DNA from: Acidobacteriaceae bacterium
GTDB lineage: Bacteria > Acidobacteriota > Terriglobia > Terriglobales > Acidobacteriaceae
Direction: 5' to 3'
NCBI GenBank assembly: GCA_025356095.1
Contig: JANXUR010000040.1
Span: forward strand, 1-39,800
Length of the DNA stretch: 39,800 nt
A program made the position numbers and the translations under genes. Positions 24,332 through 34,207 of this stretch are shown here, one piece after another; position 1 is the first letter of the stretch, and every line of letters begins with the position of its first letter. Under the pieces are notes generated by a model. That model made no database searches and was not told the origin of the DNA. It was given only the letters and a program-made list of their open reading frames with translations.

Positions 24332-25729
24332 ATGCCAGCCACCACCGCCACTCCCGCCCCCGTCAGCAAGAAGGAAGCCTCGCCCACCAAGCGCCCCACG
24401 CCCCAGCAGAAAACTGTCAGCCAACCGCCTCGCGAGCTCGAACTCACCCAACGCATCTCCAACCTCGAACGTAAGCTGCAAGACCGTACCATCCAAAGCA
24501 AATCCTTCGCCACCTCGCTTCAGCATGAAACCGCTTGGGACGCGGAAACGCAAGCCTCCCGCACCGCCAGTGAAGAGCGCTTCCGCCTCGTCCTCGATGG
24601 CGTCAAAGACTTCGCCGTCTACATGCTCGACCCCCAAGGCCGCATCCTGAGTTGCAACGCCGGCGCTGTTCGGCTTCAGGGATACTCCGCCACCGAGGTC
24701 ATGGGCCTCCATTACTCACTGTTTTACTCGGCCGAAGCTCAGACCCTTGGCTTGCCGCTCCGGCAGTTGCAAGCCGCCTCAGCCAATGGCCGCTTCGAGG
24801 GCGAATGCGAACATGTCCGCAAAGACGGCTCCACATTCTGGGCCAACGTCGTCATCACTCCCTTGCTCGACGACACCGGCAAACTCTATGGCTATTCCAA
24901 AGTTGCCCGCGACATCACTGCCCTTCGTCAAGCTCAGGAAGCGGTTCGCGCCCTAAACCAAACCCTCGAACAGCGCGTCGCCGACCGCACCCGAGAATTG
25001 CAAATTGTCAACGAAGACCTCGAGGCTTTCACCTACTCCGTCTCTCATGATCTGCGCGCCCCCCTCCGCCACATGGCGGGCTTCGCCAAGATGCTCTCCG
25101 AGGACTACGGCAGCGCCCTCGACCAGGACGGCCAGCACTGCTTGCAGCGGATTCAGGAAGGCTCGCGCCACATGGGCATTCTAGTCGACGACCTGCTCAA
25201 TCTGGCGCGCATCGGCCGCCATGAACTGCACAAGCAGGTTGCCAGCCTTGGAATGCTTGTGAGCGAAGTCATCACCGACCTCACGCAAGACATCGGCACG
25301 CGCCAAGTGGAATGGATCGTGGGCGAGCTGCCCTGCGCGGAAATGGACCCCGCACTCATGAAGGTTGTCTTCCAAAACCTGCTCTCCAACGCCCTCAAGT
25401 ATTCCCGACCCCGTGCCCACACCATCATTGCAGTCGGACACGGGCAGAGCGAAGGCCATTCCGTGATCTTCATCCGCGACAACGGCGTCGGCTTCGACAT
25501 GAAATATGCCGACAAACTATTTGGCGTCTTCCAGCGCCTCCACCGCTCCGAAGACTTCGACGGCACCGGCGTCGGCCTCGCCATCGTGCAGCGCATCCTG
25601 CAAAAACACGGAGGCCGCATCTGGGCCCGTGCTGAAGTGGATAAGGGTGCCACCTTCTGCTTCACCTTGAACGGCATCAACCACAGCGACTTCAGCAACC
25701 CATCTAACCTCACGGAGACAATAGTATGA
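24332..25729 (+). CDS. PAS-domain sensor histidine kinase
   Basis: This 465-residue kinase starts with a Pro/Lys-rich segment and coiled coil (1-80), then a PAS domain with PAC motif (about 83-195: FRLVLDGVKDFAVYMLDPQGRIL and GYSKVARDITAL), a short coiled coil (198-230, ALNQTLEQRVADRTREL), the HisKA box YSVSHDLRAPLRHM with H239, and a HATPase domain with FQNLLSNALKYSRP, RDNGVGFD and GTGVGLAIVQRI. There is no membrane segment, so it senses in the cytoplasm; a bound haem, flavin or other ligand cannot be read. The HisKA type is the one found with bacteriophytochromes, but no GAF/PHY is present. First gene of the six-gene operon; its TGA overlaps the next ATG by 4 bp. Confidence 0.94.
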   Translation: MPATTATPAPVSKKEASPTKRPTPQQKTVSQPPRELELTQRISNLERKLQDRTIQSKSFATSLQHETAWDAETQASRTASEERFRLVLDGVKDFAVYMLDPQGRILSCNAGAVRLQGYSATEVMGLHYSLFYSAEAQTLGLPLRQLQAASANGRFEGECEHVRKDGSTFWANVVITPLLDDTGKLYGYSKVARDITALRQAQEAVRALNQTLEQRVADRTRELQIVNEDLEAFTYSVSHDLRAPLRHMAGFAKMLSEDYGSALDQDGQHCLQRIQEGSRHMGILVDDLLNLARIGRHELHKQVASLGMLVSEVITDLTQDIGTRQVEWIVGELPCAEMDPALMKVVFQNLLSNALKYSRPRAHTIIAVGHGQSEGHSVIFIRDNGVGFDMKYADKLFGVFQRLHRSEDFDGTGVGLAIVQRILQKHGGRIWARAEVDKGATFCFTLNGINHSDFSNPSNLTETIV

Positions 25730-26208
25730 ACAACTTCAGCGTCCTAGATATCCTCTTGGTCGAAGACGACAAAGACGATCTGGAACTCACCCTCCACGCC
25801 CTGCGCCGCGAGCACCTCGCCAACAACATCTTCGCCGTGCGCGATGGCGAAGAAGCCCTCGAGTTCCTCTACTGCACCGGCCGCTATGCAGACCGCGCCG
25901 GTAGCCAGCAACCCCGCCTCGTCCTGCTCGACCTCAAATTACCCAAAGTCAATGGCCTCGAAGTCTTGGAACGCATCAAGAACGATCCCCGCACCCGCGC
26001 CATTCCAATCGTCATCCTCACCTCCTCCAAAGAAGAATGCGACTTGGTCACCAGCTACCACTTCGGAGCTAACAGTTACATCCAGAAGCCGGTGGACTTC
26101 GACCAATTTCGCAACGTCATCAAGAACGCCGGCCTCTACTGGATGGTCATTAACCAGCTGCCGTTGTCTAATCCGGCGGACGCCGCGATGGCCGCTGGCA
26201 AGCCATGA
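25726..26208 (+). CDS. Single-domain response regulator (Rcp1-like)
   Basis: This 160-residue protein is a stand-alone receiver. Acidic pocket: LLVEDDKDD; phosphoacceptor D69 in LVLLDLKLPKVNG; switch Thr/Ser in VILTSSKEE; Lys in YIQKPVDFDQF. The longer beta3-alpha3 loop (LYCTGRYADRAGSQQPR) and the C-terminal WMVINQLP are typical of Rcp1-type regulators that pair with phytochrome-like kinases. There is no output domain, so it acts as a phosphate shuttle or by protein contact. It overlaps the genes on both sides by 4 bp (ATGA), so translation is coupled with the flanking kinases. Confidence 0.95.
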   Translation: MNNFSVLDILLVEDDKDDLELTLHALRREHLANNIFAVRDGEEALEFLYCTGRYADRAGSQQPRLVLLDLKLPKVNGLEVLERIKNDPRTRAIPIVILTSSKEECDLVTSYHFGANSYIQKPVDFDQFRNVIKNAGLYWMVINQLPLSNPADAAMAAGKP

Positions 26209-27377
26209 GCGCCGCCGCTCCCGCCCGGTGCCAGCCCGCCCCACTCCGCGTGCTGCTCATTGAAGACAGTCCCGCAGACGCGGAACTTACCCTCGCCGCC
26301 CTTCGCCGCGATGCCATGGACGTCTCCAGCGACCTGGCGCAATCCCGCGAATCCATTGCCGCCGCGCTGCGCGACAAACCTTACGACATCATCCTCGCCG
26401 ACTACCACTTGCCCAACTTCCGCGGTATGGAAACCCTCGACATCCTTCGCGAACTAGGCCTCAATACCCCGCTCATCTTGATGACCGGGGCTATGCAAAC
26501 CATCACTGCGGTCGAGTGTGTCAAGCAAGGTGCCAGCGACTACATCCTCAAAGAAAACCTCAACCGCCTCCCCCACTGCATCCGCCGCGCCCTCGAAGAA
26601 GCTCGCCTCCGGGAAGAAAGCAAACTCGCCCAGGAAGAGCTCGCCACCAAAGTGGCGGAACTCGCCCGCTCTAACGCCGACCTCGAACAGTTTGCCTATG
26701 TCGCTTCTCACGACCTCCAGGAACCCTTGCGCATGGTCTCCGCCTATACCCAGTTGCTCGCCAAACGCTACTCCGGACAACTCGATGCCACAGCCGACAA
26801 ATACATCGGCTACGCCGTCGAAGGCGCCACCCGCATGCATACCCTGATCGCCGACTTGCTCGCTTTCTCCCGCGTCGGCCGCAAACGCGGCGAACCAGAA
26901 GCCATCGAATGTGACCGCGTCGTGGATGAAGCCGTCCGCAACTTGGCCGTCGCCCTCCAAGAAAGTCGAGCCGTCCTGCGCCGCTCCCCTCTGCCTCAGG
27001 TTTGCGCCGATCACGTCGAACTCTTGCAGTTGTTCCAAAACCTCATCGGCAACGCCATCAAGTTTCGCGGCACCCGCGCCCCCAAAATTCACCTTTCCGC
27101 CGAACGCCATCAAGACCACTGGTCCTTCGCCGTCTCCGACAACGGCATCGGCATCGCCCCAGAACATAGTGAAGATATCTTTAAGGCATTTCACAGATTG
27201 CACTTGCGGTCCGAGTACACGGGTAATGGCGTCGGTCTCGCCATCTGCAAAAAAATCGTTGAACAGCGCGGTGGCCGCATCTGGGTAGAATCCGTGGTCG
27301 GAAAGGGAGCGACCTTTCGATTCACGTTCCCCCTAAAGTCTGCCGATGGTGCCTGTAGCGATGAGAATTACACGTGA
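26205..27377 (+). CDS. Receiver-histidine kinase (REC-HisKA-HATPase)
   Basis: This 390-residue protein starts with a receiver domain (LLIEDSPAD; D66 in IILADYHLPNFRG; LMTGAM; YILKENLNR), followed by a short coiled coil (about 130-160) and a HisKA box FAYVASHDLQEPLRMV with H169, then a HATPase domain (NLIGNAIKF, SDNGIGIAPE, GNGVGLAICKKI). A receiver at the N-terminus of a kinase is the reverse of the classic hybrid order and suggests that an upstream phosphodonor gates the kinase. Third gene of the operon, coupled by ATGA at its start; its end overlaps the next receiver gene. Confidence 0.94.
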   Translation: MSAAAPARCQPAPLRVLLIEDSPADAELTLAALRRDAMDVSSDLAQSRESIAAALRDKPYDIILADYHLPNFRGMETLDILRELGLNTPLILMTGAMQTITAVECVKQGASDYILKENLNRLPHCIRRALEEARLREESKLAQEELATKVAELARSNADLEQFAYVASHDLQEPLRMVSAYTQLLAKRYSGQLDATADKYIGYAVEGATRMHTLIADLLAFSRVGRKRGEPEAIECDRVVDEAVRNLAVALQESRAVLRRSPLPQVCADHVELLQLFQNLIGNAIKFRGTRAPKIHLSAERHQDHWSFAVSDNGIGIAPEHSEDIFKAFHRLHLRSEYTGNGVGLAICKKIVEQRGGRIWVESVVGKGATFRFTFPLKSADGACSDENYT

Positions 27378-27798
27378 AATCCTGTTAGTGGATGACAATC
27401 CGGCTGACTCTGACCTCACCCGCGAAGTACTCGCCGCCAGCAGCCATCCCAACCACGTCACCACCCTGCTTGACGGCGAAGCCGCCATCGCTTTGCTCCG
27501 CCGCACCGGCCCCTACGGCACCGCCCGCCGCCCCGACTTGATCATCCTCGACCTCAACCTTCCTCGCATAGATGGTCGCGCCGTACTCGCCGAAATCAAA
27601 ACCGACCCCGAACTCAATCAAATTCCTGTCGTCATCTTCTCCACTTCTCACTCCGCTCAAGAAGTCGCCCGCTGTTACGAACTCGGTGCCAACTGCTACC
27701 TCCGTAAACCGGTCAGTCTCTCCGAGTTCTTTTCCGCAGTCCAATCCCTTGACGAATTCTGGATCGGATTCGCCAGCTTGCCCAAACAGGAGATATGA
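27361..27798 (+). CDS. Single-domain response regulator (Rcp1-like)
   Basis: This 145-residue receiver has LLVDDNPAD, phosphoacceptor D64 in LIILDLNLPRIDG, the switch position in VIFSTSHSA, and LRKPVSLSEF. Like the second gene of the operon it has the RTGPYGTARRP loop and a C-terminal FWIGFASLP of the Rcp1 group. The start at 27361 (MRITREILLV) gives a 17-bp overlap with the upstream kinase; an ATG-equivalent at 27346 would add five residues. Its TGA overlaps the next start by 4 bp. Fourth gene of the operon. Confidence 0.93.
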   Translation: MRITREILLVDDNPADSDLTREVLAASSHPNHVTTLLDGEAAIALLRRTGPYGTARRPDLIILDLNLPRIDGRAVLAEIKTDPELNQIPVVIFSTSHSAQEVARCYELGANCYLRKPVSLSEFFSAVQSLDEFWIGFASLPKQEI

Positions 27799-29396
27799 TG
27801 CGCTGCCACCCCTCCCACATCCTCCTGATTGAAGACAACCCCGGCGATGCCGACCTCGTCTGCTTGTGCCTCGCCGACGCCCAAGCCCAAGTCGAAATCC
27901 GCTGCGTTACTCATCTCGCCGCTGGCTTGGCCTCTCTTCTCGAATGCCCCCCTTCGCTCGTCCTGCTAGACCTCAATCTTCCCGATAGCCATGGCAGCGA
28001 CACCTTTCAGCGCATACTCGAAACTGCACCCACCGTCCCCGTCGTCATCCTCTCCGGTCAAGACGACGAAGAACTGGCAATCAAGGCCATTCATCAAGGT
28101 GCTCAGGACTATCTCGTCAAAGGCTCTTTGACCAGCCTCTCCCTCGAACGCGCCATCCATTATGCGGTCGAGCGCCAAGCCCTGTTGCGCTCGCTCGATA
28201 TGAGCCGCAAACAGCAGATTGACTTCAAAAATCAGTTCTTATCCCACGTCTCCCACGAACTGCGAACCCCCCTTACCTGCATTCATCAGTATGTGTCCCT
28301 CTTGTTCGATGGCCTCGCCGGCTCCATCTCGCCCGATCAGCGCGCCCACCTCCAAACCGTGCTCAAAAGCGTCCACCAGCTTCAAGCCATGATCAAGGAC
28401 TTGCTGGAGGCCACCCGCGCCGAGTCGGGCAAAACCCGCATCGAACCCCGCTGCTTGGCTCTTGCCGACCTGCTGCGCGAGTCCGTCGCCATGATGCAAC
28501 CCTTGGCTCGTGAACACCATATCCACCTCGCCTTGTCGGTTGATTCTCTACTCCCTCTGGCCTACGCCGATCCCGACCGTATCCTCGGCGTCGTCCTCAA
28601 CCTGATTGATAACGCCATTAAATTCACACCCCCAGAAGGCAACATTACCGTCAGCGCCAGCACCATGGCCAATGACCCCGACTTCGTTTACATCTCGGTG
28701 GCCGATACCGGTCGCGGCATTAGTCCAGAAGCTCTGCCCCTTATCTTTGAGCGGCTCTATCAAGATCCTTCGTCGGCTGACACCAACCGCTCTGGCCTCG
28801 GCCTTGGCCTTTACATTGCCAAGGAGATGGTGACTCTCAACGGTGGTCAGATCTGGGCTACCAGCCAGATCGGTTGCGGCAGTACCTTCTCCATCAAGCT
28901 CCCCAAACACTCCCTCGCCAAGTTACTCATGCCTATCGTCCTCCACAAGGGCCGTTTACGCGATTCCCTTGTCCTCGTTCGCGTGGATCTCGCACCGCTC
29001 CCCCATGTGGCTCGCGCCCACTGGCGCGAAACTTGCCTCAATTGCCTAGATCTCCTTCGCCGCTGCGTCCACATTGATACTGACCTGGTTCTGCCCCCTC
29101 TCGCTGCCACCAGCTTGGAAGAAAGCTTCTACATCCTCGCCTCCACAGACATGGTGCGGGTCAACATCATGATTGCTCGCATCGCCGAACAGATCGCGGC
29201 CCTCCCCCACTTCCAATCCAACGCCACCATCACCGTCACCGCCAAGCCAGTCGCCCGCATTGCAACGGACTACAGTGCCCCTCTGGCCTCTCAGGTGGAA
29301 GCAGTCGCCACCCACGTTACCCAACTCATCACCGCCGACCTGCACGACAAAGGCTCACACTCCGTCACTCAAAGGAAGCAATATGCAAACGCTTGA
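27795..29396 (+). CDS. Receiver-histidine kinase with C-terminal extra domain
   Basis: This 533-residue protein has a receiver (LLIEDNPGD; D59 in LVLLDLNLPDSHG; ILSGQDD; YLVKGSL), HisKA box LSHVSHELRTPLT with H154, and a HATPase domain (N273 in LNLIDNAIKF, ADTGRGIS at 303-310, SGLGLGLYIAK). After the kinase, residues 372-533 form an additional domain. It contains DSLVLVRVDLAPLP, CLDLLRRCVHIDTDLVLPP and ILASTDMVRVNIMIARIAEQI, a strand-helix pattern reminiscent of GGDEF domains but without any GGDEF or RxxD motif. It could be a degenerate cyclase-like module for dimerisation or sensing. Fifth gene of the operon; its end overlaps the last receiver gene by 14 bp. Confidence 0.92.
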   Translation: MMRCHPSHILLIEDNPGDADLVCLCLADAQAQVEIRCVTHLAAGLASLLECPPSLVLLDLNLPDSHGSDTFQRILETAPTVPVVILSGQDDEELAIKAIHQGAQDYLVKGSLTSLSLERAIHYAVERQALLRSLDMSRKQQIDFKNQFLSHVSHELRTPLTCIHQYVSLLFDGLAGSISPDQRAHLQTVLKSVHQLQAMIKDLLEATRAESGKTRIEPRCLALADLLRESVAMMQPLAREHHIHLALSVDSLLPLAYADPDRILGVVLNLIDNAIKFTPPEGNITVSASTMANDPDFVYISVADTGRGISPEALPLIFERLYQDPSSADTNRSGLGLGLYIAKEMVTLNGGQIWATSQIGCGSTFSIKLPKHSLAKLLMPIVLHKGRLRDSLVLVRVDLAPLPHVARAHWRETCLNCLDLLRRCVHIDTDLVLPPLAATSLEESFYILASTDMVRVNIMIARIAEQIAALPHFQSNATITVTAKPVARIATDYSAPLASQVEAVATHVTQLITADLHDKGSHSVTQRKQYANA

Positions 29397-29811
29397 CAAC
29401 ACCAACAGCCAGCCCCGCCAGAAGATTCTCATCGTGGACGACGATCAGGACTTGCGTACCGCCATGAAGTTGCGTCTCAAAGCGAACCGCTACGAAACCG
29501 TCACCGCCTCCGATGGCTATACCGCCATCGCTCAAGCTCAGAAAGAGCAGCCCGACCTCATTATTCTCGATTTGGGCCTGCCCGCTGGCGACGGCTTCTC
29601 CGTGCTGCAACGCATCCAAGAAAGCGACTCGCTCTCCAGCATCCCCGTCATCGTCTTGAGCGCCCGCGACCCCCAAGGCAACGCCCGCCGCAGTCTGGAA
29701 GCCGGAGCCGTAGCTTTCTTCCAAAAACCGGCCGATAACCACGAGTTGCTGAATGTAATTCAGGCCACGCTGGGTGCAGGCGCGCTCATGGAATCGCCCC
29801 TTCGCGTCTGA
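29383..29811 (+). CDS. Single-domain response regulator
   Basis: This 142-residue receiver has LIVDDDQDL, phosphoacceptor D63 in IILDLGLPAGDG, VLSARDPQG and FFQKPADNHEL. It is closer to the CheY/OmpR receiver type than to the Rcp1 type of the two other single receivers. There is no output domain. Start: ATG at 29383 with AGGAAG 6 bases before, inside the end of the upstream kinase gene. It is the last gene of the operon; no terminator hairpin is visible after it. With five receivers and three kinases in the unit, phosphate could be branched or relayed, but no Hpt domain is seen in the window. Confidence 0.93.
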   Translation: MQTLDNTNSQPRQKILIVDDDQDLRTAMKLRLKANRYETVTASDGYTAIAQAQKEQPDLIILDLGLPAGDGFSVLQRIQESDSLSSIPVIVLSARDPQGNARRSLEAGAVAFFQKPADNHELLNVIQATLGAGALMESPLRV

Positions 29812-30487: not shown

Positions 30488-30717
30488 CACTTCTACTTCC
30501 ACTTCGGTCAATTGAGACCCTCCTCCCCTACACACAAGCCACGCACCGTCGAACCCGCACCACGCTGCTACTGCGTTCCTATTATTGCCCCCATTTTCCT
30601 TGTCCCCAATAATTCCATAACTTCCTGAAAGAGAAAGTCATGGCACCCCGAGTCTGTGGCCGCCTTCTGCCCCTTCCTTCTTTCACGTCTATTTTGCTAA
30701 GGGAGAATTCGCATCGC

Positions 30718-33488
30718 ATGAGCCATTTGAAGAGCGTGCTGTGTGTGCTCGCATTTCTGTTGACTGGTCTTAACGCTCGAGCACAACAAATTACTGGAAG
30801 CATCCGCCGCACCGTAACCGACTCCAGTAATGCGATCGTGCAAGGTGCCTCCGTCAGCGCCAAGCAGACGGTAACCGGATTGACCCGCACCGCCACCACC
30901 GACCGCACCGGTGCCTACGTTCTCGTGGAGTTACCCGTCGGACACTACCAGTTGCAGGCCGAAGCCAAGGGCTTTCGCACCTACGTCCAGCAAGGCATCA
31001 TCCTCACCGTCAATCAGTCCGCCACCATCCCCGTCCACCTCGCCGTCGGCCTCGAAACCCAAAAGGTAGAAGTCATGGCAGACGCCCAGCCCATTCAATC
31101 CACCACCACCGCTTTGGGCAAGACCGTTACCCCCCGTGAGGTACTCCACCTGCCTCTTGACGGCCGTAACTTTACGCAACTCGGCTTGCTCCAGCCCGGC
31201 GTCGTACCCATCACGCCCGGCCTCGCCGAAGCCGGAGGCTCGCTGCGCGCTGGTCAGGCCTACCCCGTTAACGGCCAGCGCCCAGAGTCTAATAACTTCC
31301 TGATTGATGGGGCCAACAACTTCAACGGCGTGGATCGCGGCTTCGTCCTCAAACCTCCCGTGGATGCCATCACCGAGTTCAATATCCTCACCCACAACGC
31401 CGGTGCCGAGTTCGGCCGTAGCCTCGGCTCCACCACCAACATCATCACCCGCTCCGGCACCAACGCTATCCACGGTGCGCTCTGGGAATTCCTCCGCAAC
31501 GACGTCTTCGATGCCAAACATTACTTTGCCAGCACCATCGAACCCCTCAAGCAAAACCAGTTCGGAGGCAGCATCGGCGGCCCCATCCGCAAAGATAAAA
31601 CTTTCGTATTCGGTTACTTCGAAGGCTTCCGCAATCGTCAGGGCGAAACCGACTCCTCCACCCTCCCCTCGCTCCTCGAACGCGGCAGTCACTTCTCCGC
31701 CATCTGTACCGAAGGTTTTGTCCAAGGCTTTTGCCAAAATCAAGACCACCAACTCTTCAACGTCTTTTTGAACCAGCCCTACCCCAACAATCAGCTCCCC
31801 GTCGAACAGATCAACCCCGTTTCTTCCAGCTTACTCAGCTACTTCCCCCTCCCCACTAGCGGCACCAACGTCTTCACCCCCACCCAAGTCGTGCGTCAAG
31901 ACACCAATCAGTTTGGCTTGCAGCTCGATCACTACATCAGCACGTCGGATGTCCTGAATTTCCGCTAGGCTTTCAGTAACGGCACTCAATTCAATCCCAT
32001 CCCTACGTCCGGAGCCAGCCTGCCCGGTTTTCCCATCGGGCAAGAGCAGCGCGCGCAAAACTTCGTCGCGCAAGAAACCCATACCTTCTCGCCCTCGATG
32101 ATCGGCGTGGCTCGCTTCTCGGTCTTGCGCAATAAATTCCTCTACCGTGAACCCACCAACCACACCACTCCACAAAGTCTGGGCTTCCAATACTCGCCGA
32201 GCTTGGACGCAGCCATCGGCCCACCCTTCATTCAAGTCAACGGCTATACCACCGTCGGTGACCCCATCACAGGCCCCCGCAACACTTATGAGGACGCCTT
32301 TGACTACTCTGCCTCTCTGAGTTGGGTTCATGGCCGACATGATGTCAAATTTGGCAGAGGGTATCAGCACCTACACATCAACGTCCTGCTGGGTATTGCC
32401 ACCAACGGCTTCTTTGTCTTCGCGCTCTTCCCCGTCGTCCCCAACGCCTTCGCCAGCTTCCTCTTCGGGCAGCCGGTCTTCTTTCTGCAGGGTCGTGGAG
32501 ACTTCTCGCGCGGTATCAATGGCCAGTCGCTCAACGCTTACGCCCAAGATACCTTCAAGGTCTCACCGCGCCTCACCCTCAACTATGGCTTGCGCTATCA
32601 GCTACCCTTCCCTTACACCGAAATCAAGAACCGCCAGACTCTCTGGATTCCCGGACGCCAATCCACCGTGCTTCCCAAGGCACCCGCCGGATTGCTCTAC
32701 CCCGGCGATCGCGGCGTACCTGCTGGCCTCATCCCCACTTTCAAAAAGGGCTTCGCTCCCCGCATTGGTATCGCGTGGGATCCTACCGACAGTGCCAAAT
32801 GGTTGGTGACTTCTGCTTACGGCATCTTCTATGAGCCCTACTACACCGGACAAGGTGGCCCGCTTCAGCCCCCCATCAGCGCTCCTCCGTACCTTCAAAC
32901 CGACCAGATTAGCCTGCCCAACTTCTCCGACCCCTACAACGGCAATCCCCCTGCGCCGGGTGCGTTTGCCACCCCACTTACCAACCTCACCCTCGCTTCC
33001 TACCTCGCGCTGCCTTATCCGCAAGACTGGGACATTAACCTGCAAAGGTCCATCGGCGCCGATATGCTACTCGAAGTCGGTTACGTAGGCACCAAGGGAA
33101 CCAAGCTGCCTCGCTTCGTCGAAGGCAATCCGGCTGTATACATTCCCGGCTTCGACTCCAAAGGCCAGCCCGCACCCACGGCGCATGGCTCAACGCCAAC
33201 GCCTTCCAGCGCATTATCCAAGACCCTAACTCGCCCGTCCAACAGTTCGGCACCGCGGGCCGTAACATCGCCGTCGGTCCCGGCTACGCCAATTGGGACG
33301 TCTCGGCCTTCAAGGATTTCCATCCGGCAGAGTCGAAAACCTTCCAGTTCCGCGCCGAACTGTTCAACGTCCTCAACCACACCAACTTCCGCTTGCCAGA
33401 TAGCGACATCAGTTCCCCAACCTTCAACCAGATCCTAGCCGCTCAGTCTCCACGTCTCGTGCAGTTTGCACTCAAGTTCTTGTTCTGA
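30718..33488 (+). pseudogene. TonB-dependent receptor pseudogene (nonsense plus deletion/frameshift)
   Basis: An Oar-type receptor is broken in at least two places. The first part (MSHLKSVLCVLAFLLTGLNA signal, carboxypeptidase-regulatory domain, plug with NFLIDGANNFNGV and AEFGRSLGSTTNIITRSGT) runs to an in-frame TAG at 31966. The frame then continues without shift (AFSNGTQFNPIP...) to about 33180, so the TAG replaces one codon, probably TAT/TAC (Tyr). Near 33180 the reading changes frame: the true C-terminus, AWLNANAFQRII through NWDVSAFKDF, AELFNVLNHTNF and QFALKFLF, is read in another frame up to the TGA at 33486-33488. About 150-250 barrel residues normally found between these parts are missing, so a deletion is likely. 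Start chosen at 30718 with AAGGGAG upstream. Confidence 0.9.
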
Positions 33489-33513
33489 ACCAGATGTAAT
33501 TCGCATATCCATC

Positions 33514-33694: not shown

Positions 33695-34207
33695 TTGCCG
33701 CTGAGTGCTGGTACCAAATTCGGCCCCTACCAGTTTGCGGTCCCCATCGGCTCCGGCGGCATGGGCACGGTTTATCGTGCACTCGATACCCGCCTCCAAC
33801 GCACCGTCACCATCAAAATTCTCCATCCCCATCTTTCCCAGAGCCGCGACTTCCGCGAGCGCTTTGAGCGCGAAGCCAAAACCATCTCCCAACTCAACCA
33901 TCCCCATATCTGCCACCTCTATGACGTCGGTACCGCTGACGGCATCAGCTATCTGGTCATGGAGCACCTGAACGGCGCCACCCTCGCCGCCCGCATCGCT
34001 GAAGATCCTCTGCCTTTCGAGCAATTGATCAAAATCTCGCTCCAGATCACCGACGCTTTAGATCGCGCTCACTCCATCGCCCTCGTCCACCGCGACCTCA
34101 AGCCCGCCAATATCTTCCTCACGCAAGATGGCTACCCCAACTCGCCCACTTACCCACAAAAATACGATAAACTGCACCCTGCGGAGCTGGAGCCGCCCCA
34201 ATGCTGA
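33695..34207 (+). pseudogene. Truncated Ser/Thr protein kinase
   Basis: The first 145 residues are a Hanks-type kinase closely similar in layout to the intact kinase at 5539-8268: GTKFGPYQFAVPIGSGGMGT, TIKIL with the ATP-binding Lys, HPHICHLYDVG and HRDLKPANIFLT. It then breaks off before the DFG motif, activation loop, C-lobe, membrane segment and propeller. The last 25 residues are unrelated (PNSPTYPQKYDKLH...) and appear to come from the leader of the next gene, whose ATG it overlaps by 7 bp. It cannot be an active kinase. The start is a TTG at 33695. The junction lies near 34133 and probably marks a deletion. Confidence 0.85.

Follow-up and report, generated by a model that had tools for sequence, protein, structure and literature searches.

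A six-gene acidobacterial operon with exchangeable sensors may encode a three-tier cascade of receiver-controlled kinases

Introduction

What could a set of six overlapping two-component genes sense, and where could its signal go, when none of the proteins carries a membrane segment and the single receivers have no output domain? The question is raised by a genome of an Acidobacteriaceae bacterium (Acidobacteriota; Terriglobia; Terriglobales; GenBank assembly GCA_025356095.1), of which we analysed a stretch of 39,800 nucleotides (contig JANXUR010000040.1, positions 1 to 39,800), hereafter the window. A preliminary description, made from the sequence alone, had read the genes as a closed cytoplasmic signalling array and had assigned it neither an input nor an output. 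Here we report how the genes are arranged in relatives, which sensors precede them there, and which route of phosphate transfer would fit these arrangements.

Results

Six open frames, A to F, whose organization as one co-directional operon is supported, occupy positions 24332-29811 of the window; the ORF list and the sequence give junction overlaps of 4, 4, 17, 4 and 14 bp. The features are as follows:

24332..25729, + strand: gene A, soluble PAS-HisKA-HATPase kinase, H239 (ORF list, Pfam, box patterns)
25726..26208, + strand: gene B, single receiver, Rcp1/RcpB-like, D69 (Pfam, solved-structure search, patterns)
26205..27377, + strand: gene C, receiver-HisKA-HATPase, LvrB-like, D66 and H169 (Pfam, LvrB alignment, patterns)
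27361..27798, + strand: gene D, single receiver, Rcp1/RcpA-like, D64 (Pfam, solved-structure search, patterns)
27795..29396, + strand: gene E, receiver-HisKA-HATPase with a C-terminal extension, D59 and H154 (Pfam, patterns)
28899..29393, + strand: C-terminal domain of E, predicted GGDEF/PelD-like fold without a GGDEF motif (AlphaFold2 model, VIA-align; no Pfam match)
29383..29811, + strand: gene F, single receiver, PleD/DivK-like, D63 (Pfam, solved-structure search, patterns)

Coordinates, overlaps and Pfam domains all agree with the earlier count of three kinases and five receivers in six overlapping genes, and Pfam gives the same alternation of kinase, receiver, receiver-kinase, receiver, receiver-kinase and receiver. 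Scripted patterns showed that the H, N, G1 and G2 boxes are intact in kinases A, C and E, and that each of the five receivers has the acidic pair, the phospho-Asp and the Lys. The script matched the Thr/Ser position in B, C and D only; by eye, the receivers of E and F have Ser there (ILSG and VLSA, respectively). No Hpt, GAF or PHY match was present among the Pfam families listed for the six proteins, as the preliminary description had held for Hpt and for a photosensor. Within these six proteins, a classical Hpt phosphorelay was rejected on the first count, and a phytochrome partner for the Rcp1-like receivers was ruled out by the other two. We found no membrane segment in A-F (19-residue hydrophobic segment, threshold 1.6).

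No promoter-like site was found upstream of A, promoter- and terminator-like matches in the operon region did not rise above those in shuffles, and the RNA-element search of the window returned a known tRNA only. Downstream lies a TonB-type gene (carboxypeptidase-regulatory plus receptor; 30640-33490) with an in-frame stop at about 31966 and a frame change at about 33170, which reflect either decay or sequencing error; a truncated serine/threonine protein kinase ORF is found at 33695-34207.

We searched for related loci with the C-terminal tail of E as a specific probe. The tail matched in 15 of 100 genomes: its own, 13 of the 59 relatives from the same family (17 places in all) and genome G089, whose match was left out, being weak (5.9e-4), with internal stops and no two-component genes nearby. 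A phylum-wide profile search with the tail was positive in 6 of 396 genomes, again including its own, and three of these matches were weak. The table of gene order comprises 23 loci, 17 from the relatives and six from a non-exhaustive set of named acidobacterial records (L043 and L044, which repeat the contigs of L028 and L029, were left out).

The preliminary description had suggested looking for the six-gene order elsewhere, its reading to be given up if no relative kept it. The order is conserved: A-B-C-D-E-F runs uninterrupted in 8 of the 23 loci (L020, L022, L023, L025, L029, L030, L033 and L042), in L022 with gene A split over two frames and in L033 with a called E without the receiver. 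Another two hold all six genes in permuted order, namely C, then A-B, then D-E-F (L024), or C-D-E-F, then A-B (L039). Partial or rearranged sets, some at contig ends, make up the remaining 13. The genes need not occur as a unit of six, since 11 of the 23 loci have a partial set only and in L032, additionally, a single ORF comprises A and B. E and F adjoin in 22 of the 23 loci, and in genome G027 the set is split between L146 (A-B-C-D) and L021 (D-E-F); A-B, C-D and E-F are found repeatedly as units that can be separated. With starts taken from the longest ORFs, the 4-bp start-stop overlap recurs between A and B in five loci (L020, L023, L033, L039, L042) and between B and C in six (L020, L022, L023, L025, L033, L042). 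Outside the operon, after ORFs antisense to it had been set aside by position, groups of shared neighbour ORFs span at most four loci among the 15 listed.

Some genomes carry two full or partial copies with different sensors (L022 and L024 in G044, L020 and L036 in G026, L029 and L034 in G055). At L031 (9152-10606) the E gene lacks the region of the phospho-acceptor His, so that the remaining kinase core has no H box. Loci L046 to L117 are mostly generic kinases, of which L046 to L049 were inspected. In an Actinomycetota MAG (L046, 6569-11319), four genes encode a kinase, a B-like receiver, an E-type receiver-kinase and an F-like receiver; judged from this four-gene version, the design may exist outside acidobacteria. 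In a Chloroflexi MAG (L047, 4967-7344), an E-type kinase is directly followed by an F-like receiver that is 54% identical.

In all ten loci with the complete set, the N-terminal part of A is a membrane sensor. Five of these sensors are ETR1-type ethylene-binding domains (EBDs), four are CHASE3 and one is another membrane region. Pfam ETR1_N matched A of L020, L022 and L033 at about 1e-40, and A of L039 and L042 is 66% and 70% identical, respectively, to the L020 EBD by BLAST. Pfam matches to CHASE3 were found in L022, L023, L024, L025 and L030, and in A of L029 seven hydrophobic segments were counted, with no match to EBD or CHASE3. The sensor at A is thus exchanged across loci, and in the comparison with these ten loci the cytoplasmic form is peculiar to the window genome. 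The input, left blank in the preliminary description, can be assigned in relatives to a membrane sensor (EBD or CHASE3), and the reading as a closed array is not supported.

According to excerpts of the paper on AzoEtr1 (PMC11819568), the Asp, Cys and His of the EBD are copper- and ethylene-binding positions. These ligand positions are kept in four of the five operon EBDs (L020, L022, L039 and L042). In the fifth (L033, 11071-13614) Gly replaces the copper-binding Cys, so that it is possibly a natural non-binding receptor; in the EBD of L146, Asn replaces Asp. By its sequence, A of the EBD-bearing relatives is a bacterial ethylene receptor and would be expected to sense ethylene. The window A has no N-terminal EBD, the feature that defines this class. 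Nor did the ETR1_N search find a match in the window's own genome (control genomes in that search also gave no match); the search does detect the domain in relatives, with 17 EBD genes in 14 of the 100 genomes. Surroundings were available for 16 of these genes: a B-like receiver adjoins in eight, and in seven of the eight the third gene is a receiver-fronted kinase. A tblastn search of the window with A from six relatives revealed no EBD remnant and returned PAS/kinase matches and chance-level ones.

Was the sensor lost in the window lineage, or never gained? The PAS domain of the window A is 62% identical to residues 677-810 of A of L042 (1201 residues, of which the first 130 are the EBD) and 59% identical to part of A of L039. 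On the E tree, the window E groups with E of the EBD-bearing L020 and L042 (support 99/97). Because of this grouping and of the PAS identity to L042 and L039, we favour loss: the window A is probably a sensor-stripped descendant. The ancestral sensor state of its lineage rests on two relatives, and a CHASE3-type ORF of L032 also has a similar PAS stretch, which counts against loss. Also against loss, neither EBD nor CHASE3 clusters on the E tree beyond chance (110 and 90 of 500 shuffles, respectively, were as low), and sensors therefore swap often.

The branch of the window E is long (0.39 versus 0.07-0.09), which likewise counts against loss, and constraint on this E may therefore be relaxed. 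We consider it very unlikely that the window copy is decaying after sensor loss and retains little function. Its missing membrane sensor and PilZ neighbour (see below), its long E branch and the broken TonB-type gene nearby would fit decay, but the six frames are open, all kinase boxes are intact and the start-stop overlaps match those of relatives.

We compared the kinases and receivers with solved structures. C aligned end to end with LvrB (8vc9; E 3.2e-31, query 16-377 over chain 6-376), and LvrB was absent among the matches of E at 1e-20. B and D matched Rcp1, RcpA and RcpB, in line with the earlier description of two Rcp1-like single receivers; the best matches of F were PleD receivers, and the kinase cores of A and C matched bacteriophytochromes. 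An SHDL-type HisKA box is found in A (9 of 10 ORFs) and C (16 of 16), both of which precede Rcp1-type receivers, and an SHELR[TS]P box in E (22 of 23), which precedes a PleD/DivK-type receiver. In its sequence motifs, then, kinase type matches the type of the neighbouring receiver. In receiver helix alpha-1, B and C are alike in the window (ELTLxALRR) and unlike in L023 and L042, and this likeness was therefore not used to infer specificity.

Both C and E have the defining features of Rec-controlled kinases, that is, a receiver directly before DHp and CA with the phospho-Asp and His present; C has no other sensor, and E has the extra C-terminal domain. For a switch by phosphorylation there is a precedent: according to excerpts of two papers (PMC5863495, PMC13269768), Leptospira LvrA phosphorylates the N-terminal receiver of LvrB and thereby raises its kinase activity. 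By the NCBIfam cut-offs for LvrA and LvrB (NF047465/NF047466), A and C are not orthologues of these proteins, A scoring 234 of 1200 bits and C 135.5 of 500 bits. The earlier claim that no receiver has an enzymatic output agrees with the single domains B and D; it is not supported for the receivers of C and E, whose output, by analogy with LvrB, would be their own kinases.

The co-linearity with LvrB, the match between kinase and receiver types and the pairs that travel separately argue for three pairs placed in series through the receivers of C and E. On balance we think it somewhat probable that the six genes specify a cascade of Rec-controlled kinases in three tiers, with A acting on B and C, C on D and E, and E on F. 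In the first tier, A would sense the signal and pass phosphate to its partner B and to the receiver fronting C. The phosphorylated receiver would switch on kinase C, the second tier, as in LvrB of Leptospira, and C would then phosphorylate its partner D and the receiver fronting E. Once switched on, E, the third tier, would phosphorylate F. F would be the output and B and D side branches. In the window, A has no membrane sensor and a single PAS domain remains, so that the cascade probably now reads a cytoplasmic cue.

Alternatively, A-B, C-D and E-F might be independent pairs that share a transcript, the receivers of C and E being served by other kinases or by acetyl phosphate. Loci with E-F alone (L031, L035, L040), with C-D and D-E-F without A-B (L036, L045), and with receiver-less versions of C or E (L034, L035, L036) are consistent with this. 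However, the pairs are repeatedly found together, in one order and with short overlaps, and LvrA-LvrB sets a precedent for transfer from a kinase to a receiver-kinase within an operon. We consider independent pairs unlikely.

On the output side, the preliminary description had missed the C-terminus of E, about 165 unnamed residues without a match to a Pfam family. An AlphaFold2 model of this tail, built from nine sequences, reached pLDDT 79.9 and pTM 0.76. All 50 displayed rows of its VIA-align comparison were GGDEF or PelD (Z 8.4-10.6), the best being 4zve (Z 10.6, 3.4 A over 132 residues, 13% identity). The GGDEF assignment rests on this re-ranking by VIA-align of Foldseek's 1000 candidates; Foldseek itself gave two matches at E <= 0.001, neither of them GGDEF, and the first GGDEF at rank 7 (3.1e-3). 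By eye, the GG[DE]EF catalytic motif is absent in all nine sequences. The model thus shows a GGDEF/PelD-like fold without the catalytic motif, and in the proposed cascade this catalytically dead domain would serve as a binding module.

Of the 22 loci that have F, five have a PilZ gene directly after it, identified by Pfam in L020, L038, L041 and L042 and by a profile of those four in L039. No PilZ gene follows F in the window. Its genome has three PilZ genes elsewhere, the best of which is 26% identical to the relatives' PilZ over 105 residues (E 0.001), so that there is no clear counterpart. The GGDEF-like domain of E and the PilZ genes of five relatives give the output side two candidates where the preliminary description had named none. 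B and D could be phosphate sinks or feedback elements, with F or the GGDEF-like domain of E alone carrying the signal. Consistent with such a role, B and D each consist of one domain and lack an output, no pair is as constant as E-F (22 of 23 loci), and PilZ follows F in the five loci; this proposal, which we think improbable, is nevertheless compatible with the cascade, from which it departs solely in what B and D would do.

Discussion

The operon shares features with several known systems. Like Leptospira LvrA-LvrB(-LvrC), it combines an upstream PAS kinase with a sensor-less soluble receiver-kinase encoded downstream in the same operon. It differs in having two receiver-kinases, proposed to act in series, single receivers between them and an extra domain on E; the anti-sigma output provided by LvrC, the partner of LvrB, was not seen in the window operon. 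We know of no earlier arrangement in which two LvrB-like Rec-controlled kinases stand in series.

The closest published parallel to A-B, on the excerpts of PMC11819568, is AzoEtr1 of Azospirillum brasilense, an EBD-PAS-kinase whose gene overlaps that of a 135-residue output-less receiver (AzoRR-etr1), as in A-B of the EBD-bearing relatives; SynEtr1 of Synechocystis uses a DNA-activating regulator (PMC11819568). Compared with bacterial ethylene receptors, the window A lacks the EBD, and the acidobacterial version adds C-D-E-F. With phytochrome-Rcp1 systems the operon shares the matches of B and D to Rcp1, RcpA and RcpB and of the A and C cores to bacteriophytochromes, but the window A lacks the GAF/PHY photosensor. 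The modelled tail of E shares its fold with PelD and degenerate GGDEF proteins; unlike them, it sits on a Rec-controlled kinase, and by eye it has no GGDEF motif, and the Arg of the RxxD inhibitory site is missing. Among CC-licensed PMC papers, titles and abstract openings revealed none on acidobacterial ethylene receptors or on operon A-F.

As a tentative wider picture, ethylene receptors and CHASE3 sensors might feed a conserved three-tier cascade that leads to a GGDEF-like or PilZ-linked output, and some lineages, including that of the window, might have dropped the gas sensor and now be driven by PAS. Bacterial ethylene receptors have few known partners, and the proposed cascade would be a concrete, testable pathway downstream of them in acidobacteria. 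The operons also form a natural series, in which the same cascade stands behind different or missing sensors, and the rules of receiver-linked kinases could be studied within one gene set.
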